Below, in pieces: positions 15,296 to 24,140 of a DNA stretch of 64,000 nucleotides. The first letter of the stretch is position 1. Each line of letters begins with the position of its first letter. The stretch is taken from NCBI GenBank assembly GCA_945862145.1, contig CAMAXE010000023.1, positions 1 to 64,000 of the forward strand, read 5' to 3'. This stretch comes from Klebsiella pneumoniae (GTDB taxonomy: Bacteria > Pseudomonadota > Gammaproteobacteria > Pseudomonadales > UBA5518). Both the position numbers and the translations under genes were made by a program. Below the pieces are notes generated by a model. It was not told the origin of the DNA and made no database searches. It saw only the letters and a program-made list of their open reading frames with translations.

Positions 15296-15698
15296 TGGGG
15301 TTCCCGCGGGCGTGGTGTCGCGGGAGTGGTGCGCTCCAACCTGAAAATCGCGGGCATGGCCCGCTCCTACAACCGGAGGGCGTGGCGTCGCGGGGTGGTG
15401 CGCTCCAACCTGAAAATCGCGGGCATGGCGCGCTCCTACAACCGGAGGGCGTGGCGTCGCGGGGGTGGTGCGCTCCAACCTGAAAATCGCGGGCATGGCC
15501 CGCTCCTACAACCGGAGGGCATGGCGCCGCGGGGGTGGACCGCTCCTACCTGAAAATCGCGGGCATGGCCCGCTCCTACAACCGGATGGCATGGCGCCGC
15601 GGGGGTGGACCGCTCCTACAACCGGCGGGCGGGGCGTCGCGGGCATGGCCCGCTCCTACGGAAAACGTTCCGGGTAGGAGCGGGCCATGCCCGCGAAG
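15296..15698. repeat. Tandem REP-like palindrome array, 70-bp period
   Basis: Four units begin with CTGAAAATCG at 15341, 15410, 15480 and 15550 (spacing 69, 70, 70), each carrying the palindrome core CGCGGGCATGGCCCGCTCC and a second, degenerate GGTGGACCGCTCC half. The array ends in an inverted copy, GTAGGAGCGGGCCATGCCCG (15675-15694), immediately before the icmF stop codon. It fills the space between the convergent BVMO and icmF genes and could form strong hairpins on both strands, acting as a bidirectional terminator or mRNA-stabilising element. The open frames across it are repeat artefacts. Confidence 0.9.
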
Positions 15699-15700
15699 GC

Positions 15701-18700
15701 TCACATATTGCGCCGGTAAATCCCGCCAACTTCGTACAACGCCCCCGAGATCTGCCCCAGTGAGCACACCTTCCCCGCGCTCATCAGCTCGTTGAAGATA
15801 TTGCCGCGTTCCTCGGCCACCTGCTGCAGGCTCGCGATCGCGGCCGGTGATGCATCGGCGTGGCGCGACTGGAAAGCCGCGAGGTACGCAATCTGCTCGT
15901 CTTTCTCGTCATCCGAGGAGCGCATCAGTTCGCGGCCTTCGATGGTTTCTTCCTGCCCCGCAGGCGGCAGGAAGGTGTTCACGCCGATCAGCGGCAGCGA
16001 GCCGTCGTGCTTCTTGCTCTCGTAATACAGGCTCTCGTCCTGGATCTTGGAGCGCTGATACATCGTGTCCATCGCGCCCAGCACGCCACCGCGCTCCGAG
16101 ATGCGCTCGAACTCCGCGTACACCGCCTCCTCCACCAGATCGGTGAGTTCATCGACGATGAACGAACCCTGCAGCGGGTTCTCGCAGAAGTTCAGACCGA
16201 ACTCACGGTTGATCACCAGCTGTATGGCCAGTGCTCGGCGCACGCTCTCCTCGGTGGGCGTGGTGATCGCCTCGTCGTAGGCATTGGTGTGCAGGCTGTT
16301 GCAGTTGTCGAAGATCGCGCAGAGCGCCTGCAGCGTGGTGCGGATGTCGTTGAAGCTCATCTCCTGCGCGTGGAGGCTGCGACCGGAAGTCTGAATGTGA
16401 TACTTCAGCATCTGGCTGCGCGGCGCCGCGCCATAGCGCTCCCTCATGGCGCGGGCCCAGATACGGCGCGCCACGCGCCCGATCACCGTGTACTCCGGGT
16501 CCATGCCGTTCGAGAAGAAGAACGAGAGGTTCGGTGCAAAATCGTCGATGCCCATCCCGCGCGAGAGGTAGTACTCGACGATCGTGAAGCCATTCGAGAG
16601 CGTGAAGGCAAGCTGCGAGATCGGGTTCGCGCCGGCTTCTGCAATGTGGTAGCCGCTGATCGAGACCGAGTAGTAGTTGCGCACGTTGTTGTCGATGAAA
16701 AACTGCTGCACGTCGCCCATCATCTTCATGGCAAAGCCAGTGCTGAAAATGCAGGTGTTCTGCGCCTGGTCTTCCTTGAGGATGTCGGCCTGTACCGTGC
16801 CGCGCACTTTCGAGAGCGTGTCCTTGCGGATGCGGGCATAGGTCTCGGCATCCACCACCATGTCACCGGACACGCCGAGCAAGCCAAGGCCAAGTCCGTC
16901 GCTGCCTTCGGGCAGATCGCCCTGATACTGCGGGCGCTCACGGCCGGCGAAGTGGCCGTGGATCTGCTGCTGCACCGCATCCCATTGACTCGTAACCTTC
17001 AGGTGCTTCTCGATCTGCTGGTCGATCGCCGCGTTCATGAAGAACGCCAGGATGATCGGCGCCGGGCCGTTGATCGTCATCGAGACCGAGGTGGCGGGGT
17101 CGCAGAGATCGAAGCCCGAATAGAGCTTCTTCATGTCGTCGACGGTGGCGATGGAGACGCCCGAGTTGCCGACTTTTCCGTAGATGTCGGGGCGCACTGC
17201 GGGGTCTTCGCCGTACAGCGTCACGGAATCAAATGCAGTCGACAGACGGTTCGCCGGCTGCCCGCGTGCAACGAAGTGGAAACGGCGGTTGGTGCGCTCC
17301 GGCGTGCCCTCGCCCGCGAACATGCGCGCAGGATCCTCGCCGTCGCGACGGTACGGGAACACGCCCGCGGTGTAGGGGTAGAAGCCCGGCAGGTTGTGCT
17401 TCAGCAGGAAGCGCAGTTGCTCGCCCCAACCCTTGTAGCCGGGTGCGCCGATCTTGGGGATCTGCAGCCGCGAGAGGCTTTCCTTGTAGTTGTCGCCACG
17501 GACTTCCTTGCCACGCACCGTGTAGCTGTACTGCTCGGTGCGGATGCCCGCGAGACGCTCGGGCCACTCGCGCAGCAACGCCAGCGAATCCGCGCCGAGG
17601 GCGTCGATCGCGGCCTGGTAGCGCTGGCGGATGGTGCGCAGGCTGTTGTCGACGCTCTTGTCCACGAGAAGCTCGGCGGCAAAGCCGGTGAGTGCTGCGG
17701 GCAGGGCCACATCAGCGAGTTCGCGCAGCGTCTCGAACAGGTGCTGCGCGCGGTCGGCAATATCAGACTGCGATTCCGCGCGGGCGTTCTCGGCGCGGCC
17801 ACCCTCGGCGATATCGGCGAGGTAGCGCTGACGATTGCCGGGGATAAGCGCCACGGATTTGGGCTCGCGCAGGTCCGTGTTGATCGAGGGCTCCCAACGA
17901 CCAGCGGGCAGTTTCAGCTTGGTGGCCATGCGCAGGCACAGGCTGCGGAACGCCCAGTTGACACCCGGATCATTGAACTGGCTGGCGATAGACGGGAATA
18001 CCGGGATGTCGGCTTCTGCCACGTCAAAGGCGTTGTGGTTGCGGCGCCACTGCTTGCGCACATCGCGCAGCGCATCCTCGGCGCCGCGCTTGTCGAACTT
18101 GTTCAGGATGATCATGTCGGCGAAGTCGAGCATGTCGATCTTCTCGAGCTGGCTCGCGGCGCCGTATTCGCTGGTCATCACGTAAACCGAGAAATCCACC
18201 AGGTCCACGATTTCCGAGTCGCTCTGGCCGATGCCCGCGGTCTCGACGATCACCATGTCGAAGCCGAGCGACTTGAGGAACAGGATCACGTCGCCCAGCA
18301 TCTCGTTGGTGGCGAGGTGCTGACGCCGCGTGGCCATCGAACGCATGTAGAGCCGGTCGGAGATCAGGCTGTTCATGCGGATGCGGTCGCCGAGCAGCGC
18401 ACCACCCGTGCGACGGCGCGTGGGGTCCACGGCAAGCACGGCGATACGACGATCGGGGAAAAACCGCAGCAATCGCGAGAGGATTTCGTCGGTGACAGAG
18501 CTCTTGCCCGCGCCACCGGTGCCCGTGATACCCACCACCGGCACCTGGCCTGCGCGCAGGGTCCATTCCTTGCGCCGCCGCGCGAGTTCCGGCTCGCTGA
18601 AAAGGCCTTCCTCGATGGCCGAGACCATCTGCGCCACGGCGATCTCGTCGTCGATGTGCGTCTCATCCGGGCGCGCCGAGGGCTTGCGAACGGCAGCGGT

Positions 18701-19153
18701 GCGCTGCACGAGATCGTCGATCATGCCGAGCAGACCCATCGTCATGCCGTCGCGCGGGTGATAGATGCGCTCGACGCCGTAGGCTTGCAGCTCGTCGATC
18801 TCCTCAGGCGTGATGGTGCCGCCGCCGCCGCCGAAGACGCGGATATGCGGGGCATTCAGCTCCTTCAGCATGTCGACCATGTAGCGGAAGAATTCGTTGT
18901 GACCGCCCTGATAAGAGCTGATGGCGATGCCGTCGGCGTCTTCCTGCAACGCTGCGCGCACGATCTCGCGTACGCCGCGGTTGTGGCCGAGGTGAATGAC
19001 CTCGGCGCCTTGCGCCTGGATCAGGCGACGCATCACGTTGATGGCGGCGTCGTGGCCGTCGAACAGCGAGGCGGCGGTAATGAAGCGCAGGGGTTTGGCT
19101 GTGCCCGAGGCGTCAGGGGTGTTCGCCGAGGCGGGCGTGGGTGCAGTGGCCAT
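15701..19153 (-). CDS. icmF: Fused isobutyryl-CoA mutase with MeaI-like GTPase
   Basis: A single 1150-residue polypeptide combining the three parts of an adenosylcobalamin acyl-CoA mutase. The B12-binding domain is first ([14 protein letters not shown], base-off His motif, about residues 30-40), then a G3E P-loop chaperone GTPase (GTGGAGKSS near 215 and [15 protein letters not shown]), a helical linker, and the C-terminal TIM-barrel mutase ([57 protein letters not shown]). This order is diagnostic of IcmF, which interconverts isobutyryl- and butyryl-CoA and in some members isovaleryl-/pivalyl-CoA. It is slightly longer than typical IcmF. Divergent acyl-CoA dehydrogenases and a regulator with a matching palindrome at the promoter support a role in branched short-chain acyl-CoA breakdown. 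Confidence 0.95.
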
Positions 19154-19239
19154 GGGATGGATCTCCGGCGTGGCTCGGGGGATTGGAAACGGGCAGGAAA
19201 ACCCGGCCGCTTTGAATCAGGTTTTGCAGATATTGCCCT

Positions 19240-19252
19240 ATTGTCGGACAAT
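19240..19252. promoter_or_regulatory. Predicted GntR/FadR-type operator (icmF / acyl-CoA dehydrogenase)
   Basis: The sequence ATTGTCGGACAAT is a palindrome except for its centre base and matches the general TNGTNNNACNA pattern bound by FadR-subfamily GntR regulators. It lies between divergent icmF (start 19153) and the acyl-CoA dehydrogenase gene (start 19396). Its core TTGTCGGACAA is repeated exactly 10 bases upstream of the gntR-type gene at 21814. Confidence 0.65.
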
Positions 19253-19395
19253 GGGTCAATCATCAGCTGCCGCGCCTCGCAGCAATCCATGCGCGACCCG
19301 TTCAGGCTGTTTTTTATCTGCTGCAAATGTTTGCGAATCCCGACGAGCGTTGAGGACGAGACCGACCATTCCGGGCAACTGCGGAGACCTTCCAA

Positions 19396-20523
19396 GTGAT
19401 CCTGAGCGAGCAACAGACCAGCATCCGTGACGCCGTCCGCGCCTTCGCCGGAGAGCGGATCCGTCCGCGGTCGATGGAGTTCGAGCGCGATGCGGCTTTC
19501 CCTCCGCAGCTTTTTCTGGAACTGGGCGAACTGGGCCTGATGGGCATGATGGCGCCCGAGTCTTATGGCGGCGCCGGGGCTGACTGTGTGAGCTATGCGC
19601 TCGCACTGATCGAACTCGCTGCAGCAGACGGCGCCCTCTCGACGATCGTCTCGATCCAGAACTCGATCATGGTGAGCGGTCTGCTCGTCGAAGGCAGCGA
19701 GGCGCAGCGCGAGCGCTGGTTACCGGATCTCGTATCGGGAATGCTGATTGGCGCCTTCGCGCTCACCGAGTCCGACGCCGGTTCCGACGCCGGCGCCATC
19801 CGTACCCGGGCGCGGCGTATCGAGGGTGGCTGGCAACTCGACGGCAGCAAGCAGTTCATTACTTCGGGGCGTATCGCAGGCCTCGCGATGGTGATCGCCG
19901 TGAGCGACCCGGAGGCAGGCCGCAAGGGCATGTCCGCCTTTCTGGTACCCACCGACACACCCGGTTACCGCGTCGACAAGATCGAACACAAACTCGGGCA
20001 ACAGGCCTCCGACACCTGCTCGCTGCGCTTCGAGAGCTGCCGTATCGGCGACGACGCCCTGCTCGGCACCGCCGGGCGCGGCTACGCGATAGCGCTATCG
20101 AACCTCGAATCCGGGCGCATTGGCATCGCGGCGCAATCCGTGGGCATGGCGCAGGCGGCGCTCGAGATCGCGGTGAACTACGCGCGCGATCGCCGCTCCT
20201 TCGGCAAGCCCATCATCGAGCACCAGGCGGTGGGGTTCCGGCTCGCGGATCTGGCGACGCAACTCGCTGCCGCGCGCGAACTTGTGCTCCACGCTGCCGC
20301 CATGAAAGATGCCGGCCTGCCCTGCCTCAAGGAAGCGGCCATGGCCAAGCTCTTCGCCTCCGAGGCCGCCGAGACCATCACCAGCGGCGCTATCCAGACG
20401 CTCGGCGGCTACGGCTATCTGGAAGAGTTCGGTCTGGCGAAAATCTACCGCGACGCTCGCGTTTGCCAGATCTACGAAGGAACCTCCGACATCCAGCGCC
20501 TGCTGATCGCACGCGCACTCTGA
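19396..20523 (+). CDS. Acyl-CoA dehydrogenase
   Basis: A 375-residue flavoprotein that introduces an alpha,beta double bond into an acyl-CoA and passes electrons to ETF. It has the standard N-terminal helical, central beta and C-terminal helical domains, FAD/substrate signature ALTESDAGSDAGAIRT, the QTLGGYGYLEEF motif and the catalytic-base region YEGTSDIQRLLIAR (Glu361). The GTG at 19396 fits the usual family start (ILSEQQTSIRDAVRAFA). Short- or branched-chain acyl-CoA specificity is suggested by its position opposite icmF with a shared operator-like site. It is followed after 15 bases by a second, divergent-type acyl-CoA dehydrogenase. Confidence 0.92.
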   Translation: MILSEQQTSIRDAVRAFAGERIRPRSMEFERDAAFPPQLFLELGELGLMGMMAPESYGGAGADCVSYALALIELAAADGALSTIVSIQNSIMVSGLLVEGSEAQRERWLPDLVSGMLIGAFALTESDAGSDAGAIRTRARRIEGGWQLDGSKQFITSGRIAGLAMVIAVSDPEAGRKGMSAFLVPTDTPGYRVDKIEHKLGQQASDTCSLRFESCRIGDDALLGTAGRGYAIALSNLESGRIGIAAQSVGMAQAALEIAVNYARDRRSFGKPIIEHQAVGFRLADLATQLAAARELVLHAAAMKDAGLPCLKEAAMAKLFASEAAETITSGAIQTLGGYGYLEEFGLAKIYRDARVCQIYEGTSDIQRLLIARAL

Positions 20524-20538
20524 GAAGGAAACACTGAT

Positions 20539-21726
20539 ATGACAGCCGAAACCCACACTGGCGCTGGCCCGGAACTCACCGCTGCCATCGCGGCACGCAT
20601 CGAGAGCTTCGTGCGGGAGGTCGTGATTCCCTACGAGGGCGATCCGCGCCGCGACCACCACGGCGCACCCACCGACGAGCTCGTCAACGAGTTGCGGGAA
20701 CTCGCCCGCCGCGCCGGCGTACTCACACCGCATATCCTCGCTGACGGGCGCCACTTGACCCAACGCGAAACCGCCGTGGTCCTTGAGAAATCCGGTCTGT
20801 CGCTGCTCGGGCCGCTCGCTGTGAACACCGCCGCGCCCGACGAGGGAAACATGTTCCTGCTGGGGCGCATCGCGAGCCCGGAACTGCAGGAAAAATTCCT
20901 GCGCCCGCTCGTCGAAGGCCGCACGCGCTCTGCCTTTTTCATGTCCGAACCTGCGCTCGAAGGCGGTGCGGGCTCCGATCCCTCGATGATGCAGACACGC
21001 TGCTGGCAGGAAGGCGAGGAATGGGTGATCGAGGGCCGCAAAGCGTTCATCACCGGCGCCAAGGGCGCGGGCGTGGGCATCGTGATGGCGAAAGCCGAGG
21101 CCGGTGCCTGCATGTTCCTGGTTGAACTTCCGCATCCGGCGATCGTGATCGAGCACATCCCCAACACCATCGACAACTCCATGCCCGGCGGCCATGCCAC
21201 CCTGCGCATCGACAGGATGCGCGTGCCGGCCTCACAGATGCTTGGCAAGGCAGGCCAGGGCTTTGACTATGCGCAGGTGCGCCTTGCGCCTGCGCGGCTC
21301 TCGCACTGCATGCGCTGGCTGGGCGCCTGCCGTCGCGCGCAGGAAATCGCGGTGGACTACGCCAACCGCAGGCAGGCCTTCGGCAAGCAATTGATCGAGC
21401 ACGAGGGCGTGGGCTTCATGCTGGCGGAGAACGTGATCGACCTGCAGCAGAGCACACTGATGATCGACTGGTGCGCCGGCGTGCTGGACAGCGGCTCAGC
21501 CGGCATCGCCGAAAGCTCGATGGCCAAAGTGGCGGTATCGGAGGCGCTGATGCGCATCGCCGACCGCTGCGTGCAAGTGATGGGCGGCCGCGGCGTGACG
21601 GGCGACACCATCGTCGAGCAGGTCTTCCGGGAAATCCGCGCCTTCCGCATCTACGACGGCCCCACCGAGGTCCACAAGTGGAGCCTCGCGAAGCGCATTC
21701 GCCGCGAGTGGAAGGCCGCTCAGTGA
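20539..21726 (+). CDS. Acyl-CoA dehydrogenase, ACAD10/11-like branch
   Basis: A 395-residue acyl-CoA dehydrogenase relative. The N-terminal domain is longer than in the upstream gene, with the FAD-site motif MSEPALEGGAGSDPSMMQT and the C-terminal IYDGPTEVHKWSLAKRIRREW. In this branch the catalytic Glu of the 'YEGT' motif is replaced by Asp (YDGPTEVHK), as in ACAD10/11-type enzymes, so catalysis or substrate may differ from the classical enzymes. An AGAAGGA ribosome-binding site precedes the ATG. It lies 15 bases after the first dehydrogenase, so they are very likely co-transcribed. Substrate unknown. Confidence 0.9.
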   Translation: MTAETHTGAGPELTAAIAARIESFVREVVIPYEGDPRRDHHGAPTDELVNELRELARRAGVLTPHILADGRHLTQRETAVVLEKSGLSLLGPLAVNTAAPDEGNMFLLGRIASPELQEKFLRPLVEGRTRSAFFMSEPALEGGAGSDPSMMQTRCWQEGEEWVIEGRKAFITGAKGAGVGIVMAKAEAGACMFLVELPHPAIVIEHIPNTIDNSMPGGHATLRIDRMRVPASQMLGKAGQGFDYAQVRLAPARLSHCMRWLGACRRAQEIAVDYANRRQAFGKQLIEHEGVGFMLAENVIDLQQSTLMIDWCAGVLDSGSAGIAESSMAKVAVSEALMRIADRCVQVMGGRGVTGDTIVEQVFREIRAFRIYDGPTEVHKWSLAKRIRREWKAAQ

Positions 21727-21793
21727 GCGAATCAGGCGCTGCGAGCAGTGCTGTCACCCGTGCGGTCTTGGCGTCCGGATCGACGTTGACCCG

Positions 21794-21804
21794 TTGTCGG
21801 ACAA
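21794..21804. promoter_or_regulatory. Predicted GntR/FadR-type operator at the regulator's own gene
   Basis: TTGTCGGACAA occurs here, identical to the core at 19241-19251. It sits 10 bases before the chosen start codon of the GntR-type gene, a position suited to autorepression. Confidence 0.6.
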
Positions 21805-21813
21805 TCGATCACC

Positions 21814-22620
21814 ATGCTGCCTAATCCCCAGTTGGAACTGCCATCGTCGCCCATGACCAGCCGAGCGCCGGCCCAGTTCGCAACGCTCAAGCGTGTGCCC
21901 GCCTACCTGCAGGTGAGCGAGCGTATACGCGCGGCGATACTCGGCGGCGAGATTCCCGCAGGCGAGCTTCTGCCCACCGAGACCGAGCTCGCCACCCAGT
22001 TCGGCGTGACACGCTCCACCGTGCGCGAGGCCATCAGGTTGCTGGAGCAAGGTGGCCTGCTGGGCCGCGCGGGGCGCAAACGGCTGGCGGTGCGGCTGCC
22101 CTCGCTGGAATCCGCCTCGCGCTCGATCAGCGTGGCAATGCAGATGCACCGCGTGACCTTCAAGGACCTGTGGGAAATCTCGATGGGGCTCGAGCCGCTC
22201 GCGGCCCGACTCGCCTGCGCCACGCTCGATGCGCAGTACACGGCGCTGCTGGCGGCCAACCTGGAGCGTACCCGCGCGGCCTTTGACGACGATCTGGAAA
22301 TGCTCGAGGCCGAAATCGAGTTCCACGACCTCGTAGCCCGCGCAACGCGCAACCACGCGCTGCTGCTGGCACGCGAACCGCTCAACCTGCTCTTCTACCC
22401 CGCCTACCGCCCGGTGATCGAGCGCCTGAAGCCCGGCAAGCGGATCCTCGAATCGCACCAGAAAATCTTCGAGGCGATCCGCCGCAATGACCCCGACACC
22501 GCCGCCGAGTGGGCCGAGAAACATATGCGCGACTTCCGCCGGGGGATCCTGATGGCCAAGCTCGACTTCGACGGCCCGGTCGCGGCCACGTACGCGGAAG
22601 GCACAAGCCGGACCGCTTGA
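21814..22620 (+). CDS. GntR-family (FadR subfamily) transcriptional regulator
   Basis: A 268-residue regulator with an N-terminal winged helix-turn-helix (about 30-90: YLQVSERIRAAILGGEIPAG, then TETELATQFGVTRSTVREAI and LEQGGLLGR) and a C-terminal all-helical FCD ligand-binding domain (about 105-245). FCD proteins sense organic acids or acyl-CoAs. Two identical palindromes, one at its own promoter and one between icmF and the acyl-CoA dehydrogenases, are the obvious operator candidates, suggesting local control of branched acyl-CoA metabolism. A second in-frame ATG at 21853 (MTSRAP) is an alternative start; with it the upstream palindrome would lie in the leader. The ligand is not determinable. 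Confidence 0.88.
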   Translation: MLPNPQLELPSSPMTSRAPAQFATLKRVPAYLQVSERIRAAILGGEIPAGELLPTETELATQFGVTRSTVREAIRLLEQGGLLGRAGRKRLAVRLPSLESASRSISVAMQMHRVTFKDLWEISMGLEPLAARLACATLDAQYTALLAANLERTRAAFDDDLEMLEAEIEFHDLVARATRNHALLLAREPLNLLFYPAYRPVIERLKPGKRILESHQKIFEAIRRNDPDTAAEWAEKHMRDFRRGILMAKLDFDGPVAATYAEGTSRTA

Positions 22621-23679: not shown

Positions 23680-24140
23680 GAGCGGGCCATGCCCGCGACC
23701 TCAGCGCCTGTCGCGCGCATTGCGCACTCCTACACGGATACGTTGCGCGGACCAAAAACCGACCTGCCCAGCAGGGCTCCGGCGTAGGAGCGGGCCATGC
23801 CCGCGAGCTCGGCGCCTGTGGCGGGCGTCACGCGCGCCGTGCGAGGCCTCTGTCGCGGGCATGGCCCGCTCCTACGGGGATGTCCCGAGCGTCGCCCGCG
23901 ACCTCAGCGTCTGTCGCGCGCATGGCGCGCTCCTACACGGATACGTTGCGCGGACCAAAAACCGAACTGCCCAGGGCTCCGGTGTAGGAGCGGGCCATGC
24001 CCGCGAGCTCGGCGCCTGTGGCGGGCGTCACGCGCGCCGTGCGAGGCCTCTGTCGCGGGCATGGCCCGCTCCTACGGGGATGTGTCCCGCGCATCGTCCG
24101 CGACCTCAGCGTCTGTCGCGCGCATGGCGCGCTCCTACAG
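23676..24140. repeat. REP-like repeat array, 203-bp composite unit
   Basis: The region between two convergent genes is a tandem of a roughly 203-base unit: equivalent points fall at 23714, 23917 and 24119. Each unit contains GTAGGAGCGGGCCATGCCCG in one orientation, its inverse CGCGGGCATGGCCCGCTCCT, and a GCGCGCATGGCGCGC palindrome. The core is the same as in the array at 15296-15698. The outermost copies supply the stop codons of both flanking genes. Long open frames here are artefacts of the repeat. Confidence 0.9.

Follow-up and report, generated by a model that had tools for sequence, protein, structure and literature searches.

Palindromic sites beside icmF and gntR as predicted operators of a local FCD-domain GntR regulator

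Operators of the FadR (FCD) subfamily of GntR regulators follow a palindromic GT-N3-AC consensus (PMC4494728). In AlkR of Pseudomonas aeruginosa SJTD-1 the core footprinted with DNase I is ATTGTCAGACAAT (PMC12042122), and the DNase I footprint of LhgR at its own promoter contains TTGTCTGACAA (PMC8206213). Seven ligand-domain helices characterize the FadR group of these regulators and six the VanR group (PMC12042122). No paper naming a GntR regulator together with isobutyryl-CoA mutase turned up in our literature search. The type of site presented here is already known, and the proposed repressor circuit is of an ordinary, local kind; the new element is the target, icmF.

The window (the whole 64-kb stretch of DNA that was analysed) contains two copies of TTGTCNGACAA. 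Both read TTGTCGGACAA exactly, one at 19241-19251 in the gap between icmF and acd1, the other at 21794-21804 before gntR. The earlier note had claimed identical palindromes at these positions and a shape that fits the family consensus, and both statements hold: the copies are exact and TTGTCGGACAA follows the GT-N3-AC pattern of the FadR subfamily. The predicted operator core 1, ATTGTCGGACAAT (19240..19252), lies between the divergent icmF and acd1. With its outer arms the site occupies 19233..19259; the acd1-side arm reads TTGCCC and the icmF-side arm, on the minus strand, TTGACC. The predicted operator core 2, GTTGTCGGACAAT (21793..21805), is found upstream of gntR. Judging from the sequence, the two palindromes very probably serve as operators for the FCD-domain GntR protein encoded next to them, which would repress both icmF and its own gene.

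The first of these genes, icmF (15701..19153, minus strand), encodes a fused isobutyryl-CoA mutase/G-protein chaperone. Its product scores 1672 bits against the NCBIfam IcmF model NF045497 (cut-off 1500), and the B12, MeaB and mutase domains were all found. The active-site stretches MFAGEG and DQAQNT match Cupriavidus metallidurans IcmF (DQGQNT there); the RMFAGEG and QNT stretches are as in the 4XC6 structure and include the Phe and Gln which we take to be markers of the isobutyryl-CoA type. On the plus strand, between icmF and gntR, lie acd1 (19396..20523), a short-chain-type acyl-CoA dehydrogenase gene with SCAD and butyryl-CoA dehydrogenases among its solved relatives, and acd2 (20539..21726), which is ACAD11-like and was seen solely alongside acd1. 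The regulator gene, gntR (21814..22620, plus strand), probably starts at the second Met, 21853, and not at 21814; the start at 21853 follows from the ortholog alignment and places the operator ~49 bp upstream. Tandem arrays lie on either side of the icmF-gntR region, at 15308-15616 and 23691-24139, with repeat units of 70 bp and 200 bp. The second array contains GTAGGAGCGGGCCATGCCCGCGA-type palindromes, presumably REP-like.

The bare 11-mer is not enriched in the source genome (4,375,170 bases): TTGTCNGACAA occurs five times and its reversed control pattern four times, which taken alone would suit a chance pair in the window. Against this, two copies were reached in none of 100 dinucleotide shuffles of the window (mean 0.01). 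A motif scattered without relation to the locus was looked for and is not what the genome contains. The remaining three copies are all inside long ORFs (one cysM-like, one lycopene-cyclase-like, and one further long ORF), so within the 4.4-Mb genome only the two window copies are intergenic; a distance of 2.55 kb separates them within a single gene group. Without genome-wide enrichment of the 11-mer, its significance comes from where it lies and how it is conserved, not from how often it occurs. No wider regulon is visible in the source genome: with up to two mismatches allowed, the 13-mer has 28 genome matches, about as many as the reversed control with 27.

The survey covered 390 genomes of the same order, 52 of which contain icmF. 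Twelve genomes have both icmF and a close regulator ortholog (G005 is counted among them, although its icmF is truncated at the end of a contig), and in all 12 the exact ATTGTCNGACAAT 13-mer lies 5' of icmF. Where the regulator is lacking, none of the 40 icmF upstream regions that could be used has it (L094, at a contig edge, was left out). The Fisher value of 5e-12 for this difference ignores relatedness and so overstates it, as the genomes are mostly related MAGs and the counts are not independent. This objection is partly answered by the IcmF tree: the regulator pairing is seen in two distinct lineages, and the well-supported branches require it to have changed at least twice. The conservation pattern 5' of icmF refutes a chance origin of the palindromes, whose probability we put close to nil. 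The same co-occurrence makes the local FCD GntR protein the likely binder and supports icmF as its probable target, as had been claimed. Because the core also serves other FCD regulators, a second GntR protein of the cell could compete for the sites.

Regulator orthologs were detected at four MAG loci of the same genus and, in other families of the order, at seven more. Those families have gntR and icmF as immediate divergent neighbours with a single ATTGTCNGACAAT in between, and the wider operator consensus of these loci is TTGACATATTGTCSGACAATATGTCAA. The distance from site to icmF is 72-149 bp, and 431 bp in G001. A Gammaproteobacteria-wide search of 369 genomes detected no further regulator ortholog at E 1e-50. 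In G342 and G159 GntR homologs of 46-47% identity were found, with no icmF nearby and no exact site. Other exact W-flanked matches in relatives (L054, L057-L059, L069, L070) are without TTGAC arms. The operon of G116 runs icmF-thiolase-acyl-CoA dehydrogenase-SDR, a predicted gene content that fits butyryl-CoA beta-oxidation. In two regulator-linked IcmF proteins RMFAGEG is replaced, by RMLQESG in L044 (G116) and by RMIQNAG in L048 (G368), hinting at a possibly different substrate range.

Within the genus the locus has been rearranged several ways. The acd1-acd2 pair lies between icmF and gntR in the window, G005 and G003, and was not found at E 1e-130 in G001, G002, G004, G116, G137 and G241. 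As it was not found in G001, G002 and G004, the pair is most simply an insertion and looks like a later one; the negative result in all six genomes speaks against the two dehydrogenase genes as core targets. Of the regulon proposed earlier (icmF, the acyl-CoA dehydrogenases and gntR), icmF and gntR are therefore kept as the predicted conserved core. Control of acd1-acd2 would be secondary and is less certain, because the pair was not found in these three relatives and the arm facing acd1 has degenerated.

In G004 icmF and gntR are immediate divergent neighbours. In G001 the two genes are on different contigs and an exact site is retained at each. In this genome the operator is separated from the icmF start by seven copies of a 35-bp hairpin-like repeat (L116:1310-1559), and this array accounts for the 431-bp spacing. 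G002 possesses icmF without gntR and without the site. In G045, a small genome, gntR was not found at the search threshold (other genus members have the pair), and ATTATCGGACAAT, with one mismatch, is kept 5' of icmF (L109); it is likely a fossil operator. Core 2 is retained in G005 (L014) and was lost from G003 (L015). In G003 gntR overlaps the end of acd2, behind site 1, and would therefore be transcribed from the icmF/acd1 region, through which autoregulation could still operate. The genus shows stepwise how a divergent promoter outlasts gene insertion, gene separation and regulator loss.

At divergent icmF<>gntR loci both arms around the core match the sigma-70 -35 box TTGACA at 5 or 6 of 6 positions. 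At gntR-only sites the gntR-upstream arm is kept (5-6/6) and the opposite arm has decayed (2-3/6). At the icmF/acd1 site the icmF-side arm scores 5/6 and the acd1-side TTGCCC 4/6, and at the separated icmF site of G001 both arms score 5/6, with TTGAC only in the upstream arm. This pattern suggests a -35 role for the TTGAC arms on either side of the operator core, with TTGACC the likely -35 box both on the icmF side of site 1 (minus strand) and, for gntR, at 21786..21791 (plus strand); a bound dimer would then block the promoters. We consider it less likely that the outer TTGAC/GTCAA arms are instead extra operator half-sites of a long, 27-29-bp operator. The arms are near-symmetric in the divergent icmF<>gntR loci, and a good -10 was not seen (the promoter scan gave no sigma-70 match, and a consensus -10 was not evident). 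However, where the neighbour has changed, the arm in front of the original partner gene is kept better than, or as well as, the other, and the footprint of AlkR covers only the 13-bp core (PMC12042122).

With the arms read as -35 boxes, a regulator dimer would bind each ATTGTCSGACAAT core in the promoter region. Occupancy of site 1 would block transcription of icmF and probably also that of acd1-acd2; occupancy of site 2 would block transcription of gntR itself. A metabolite of the isobutyryl-/butyryl-CoA route would release the regulator, and the mutase would be made when branched short-chain acyl-CoA needs rearranging to butyryl-CoA for beta-oxidation. An autoregulated repressor had been postulated before; autoregulation is plausible, and repression of both gntR and icmF is inferred with good support. 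The opposite sign, activation of icmF from the site, is quite improbable. Some FCD proteins do activate, CitO among them, and activators too occur in divergent regulator-target layouts. Here, however, the core is flanked by the TTGAC arms and lies within the presumed promoters, so that a bound regulator should keep RNA polymerase out, and AlkR represses from the same core (PMC12042122).

The regulator consists of an N-terminal GntR winged helix (PF00392, 66.7 bits, cut-off 27) and a C-terminal FCD domain (PF07729, 78.2 bits, cut-off 24.3). In the structural model the ligand domain (residues 98 to 247, pLDDT mostly >80) has seven helices, and the protein is classified by sequence and model as an FCD-domain GntR of the FadR subgroup. 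The FadR-type label given earlier is appropriate at the subfamily level but not in the sense of an E. coli FadR ortholog, which the FadR equivalog profiles ruled out (27.0 bits against a cut-off of 189 and 27.7 against 249). E167, H171, H215 and H237 are conserved across the ortholog group, and their 44/22 spacing is that of the Ni site of Ps5454. At the sequence level the regulator thus carries the signature of the metal-binding FCD group, three His plus an acid or Asn at the Ps5454 spacing. Structure comparison of the model returned DhdR, PdhR and DgoR as the closest ligand-domain folds.

The ligand is taken to be either a short branched acyl-CoA or its acid, the latter as a metal-chelated carboxylate. 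There is almost an even chance that the operators act as proposed but that the ligand is a small carboxylate on a bound metal ion, as in DgoR, and not an acyl-CoA. The conserved metal-site residues and the nearest folds point this way, and E. coli FadR has Phe/Tyr at the corresponding positions. For an acyl-CoA, on the other hand, speak AlkR, also an FCD protein and released by C16/C18-CoA (PMC12042122), the neighbouring enzymes, which all act on CoA esters, and the related L019 and L020 proteins, which are without two of the His ligands. A more specific version of the repressor circuit is proposed tentatively and with some doubt: a dedicated isobutyryl-CoA mutase regulator, sensing short branched acyl-CoA (or isobutyrate) via a metal-containing FCD pocket, may have been paired at least two times with icmF of separate lineages.

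More distant regulator homologs (34-42% identity) are found in Zhengella (Alphaproteobacteria), a Hyphomonadaceae MAG and an unclassified proteobacterial MAG. Their genomes have TTGTCCGACAA sites near acyl-CoA genes; in L019 and L020 TTGTCCGACAA is beside acd-gntR and a carboxyltransferase gene. As these homologs share the core with AlkR and LhgR, it belongs to a type of FCD regulator. In Zhengella (L018) three exact operator cores lie in one acyl-CoA cluster, with genes for an APH-like kinase, an ACAD-type dehydrogenase, an acyl-CoA ligase and a related GntR. With a B12 enzyme of branched-acid metabolism as the predicted target, the icmF locus offers a set of regulator, operator and target that is concrete and cheap to test; its regulator is a possible sensor for short branched acyl-CoA.

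Among the known systems AlkR is similar in several respects. It is a GntR/FCD protein with the same palindrome, its own gene is divergent from its target, the target belongs to alkane/fatty catabolism, and an acyl-CoA releases it. However, AlkR is placed in the VanR group (PMC12042122), its target is alkB2, its ligand is C16/C18-CoA, no icmF is involved, and its structural match to the window regulator is at only 18% identity. LhgR, the L-2-hydroxyglutarate regulator, is likewise a GntR protein with the same core at its own promoter, but it has another ligand and another target gene (lhgO). E. coli FadR shares the GntR winged helix, the helical ligand domain and an TNGTNNNACNA-type operator; unlike the window regulator, which remains below the equivalog cut-off, it is a global fatty-acid regulator without a metal site. 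The ligand domains of DhdR, DgoR, CGL2915 and Ps5454 are the closest in fold (Z ~15-18), Ps5454 also shares the metal His pattern, and DgoR binds its carboxylate ligand with such a metal, but the ligands and targets of all four are different. On the target side, C. metallidurans IcmF (4XC6) belongs to the same fused mutase/G-protein family and has the same active-site stretches, whereas the window IcmF falls in a longer-form clade, which the tree separates from the order's shorter forms.
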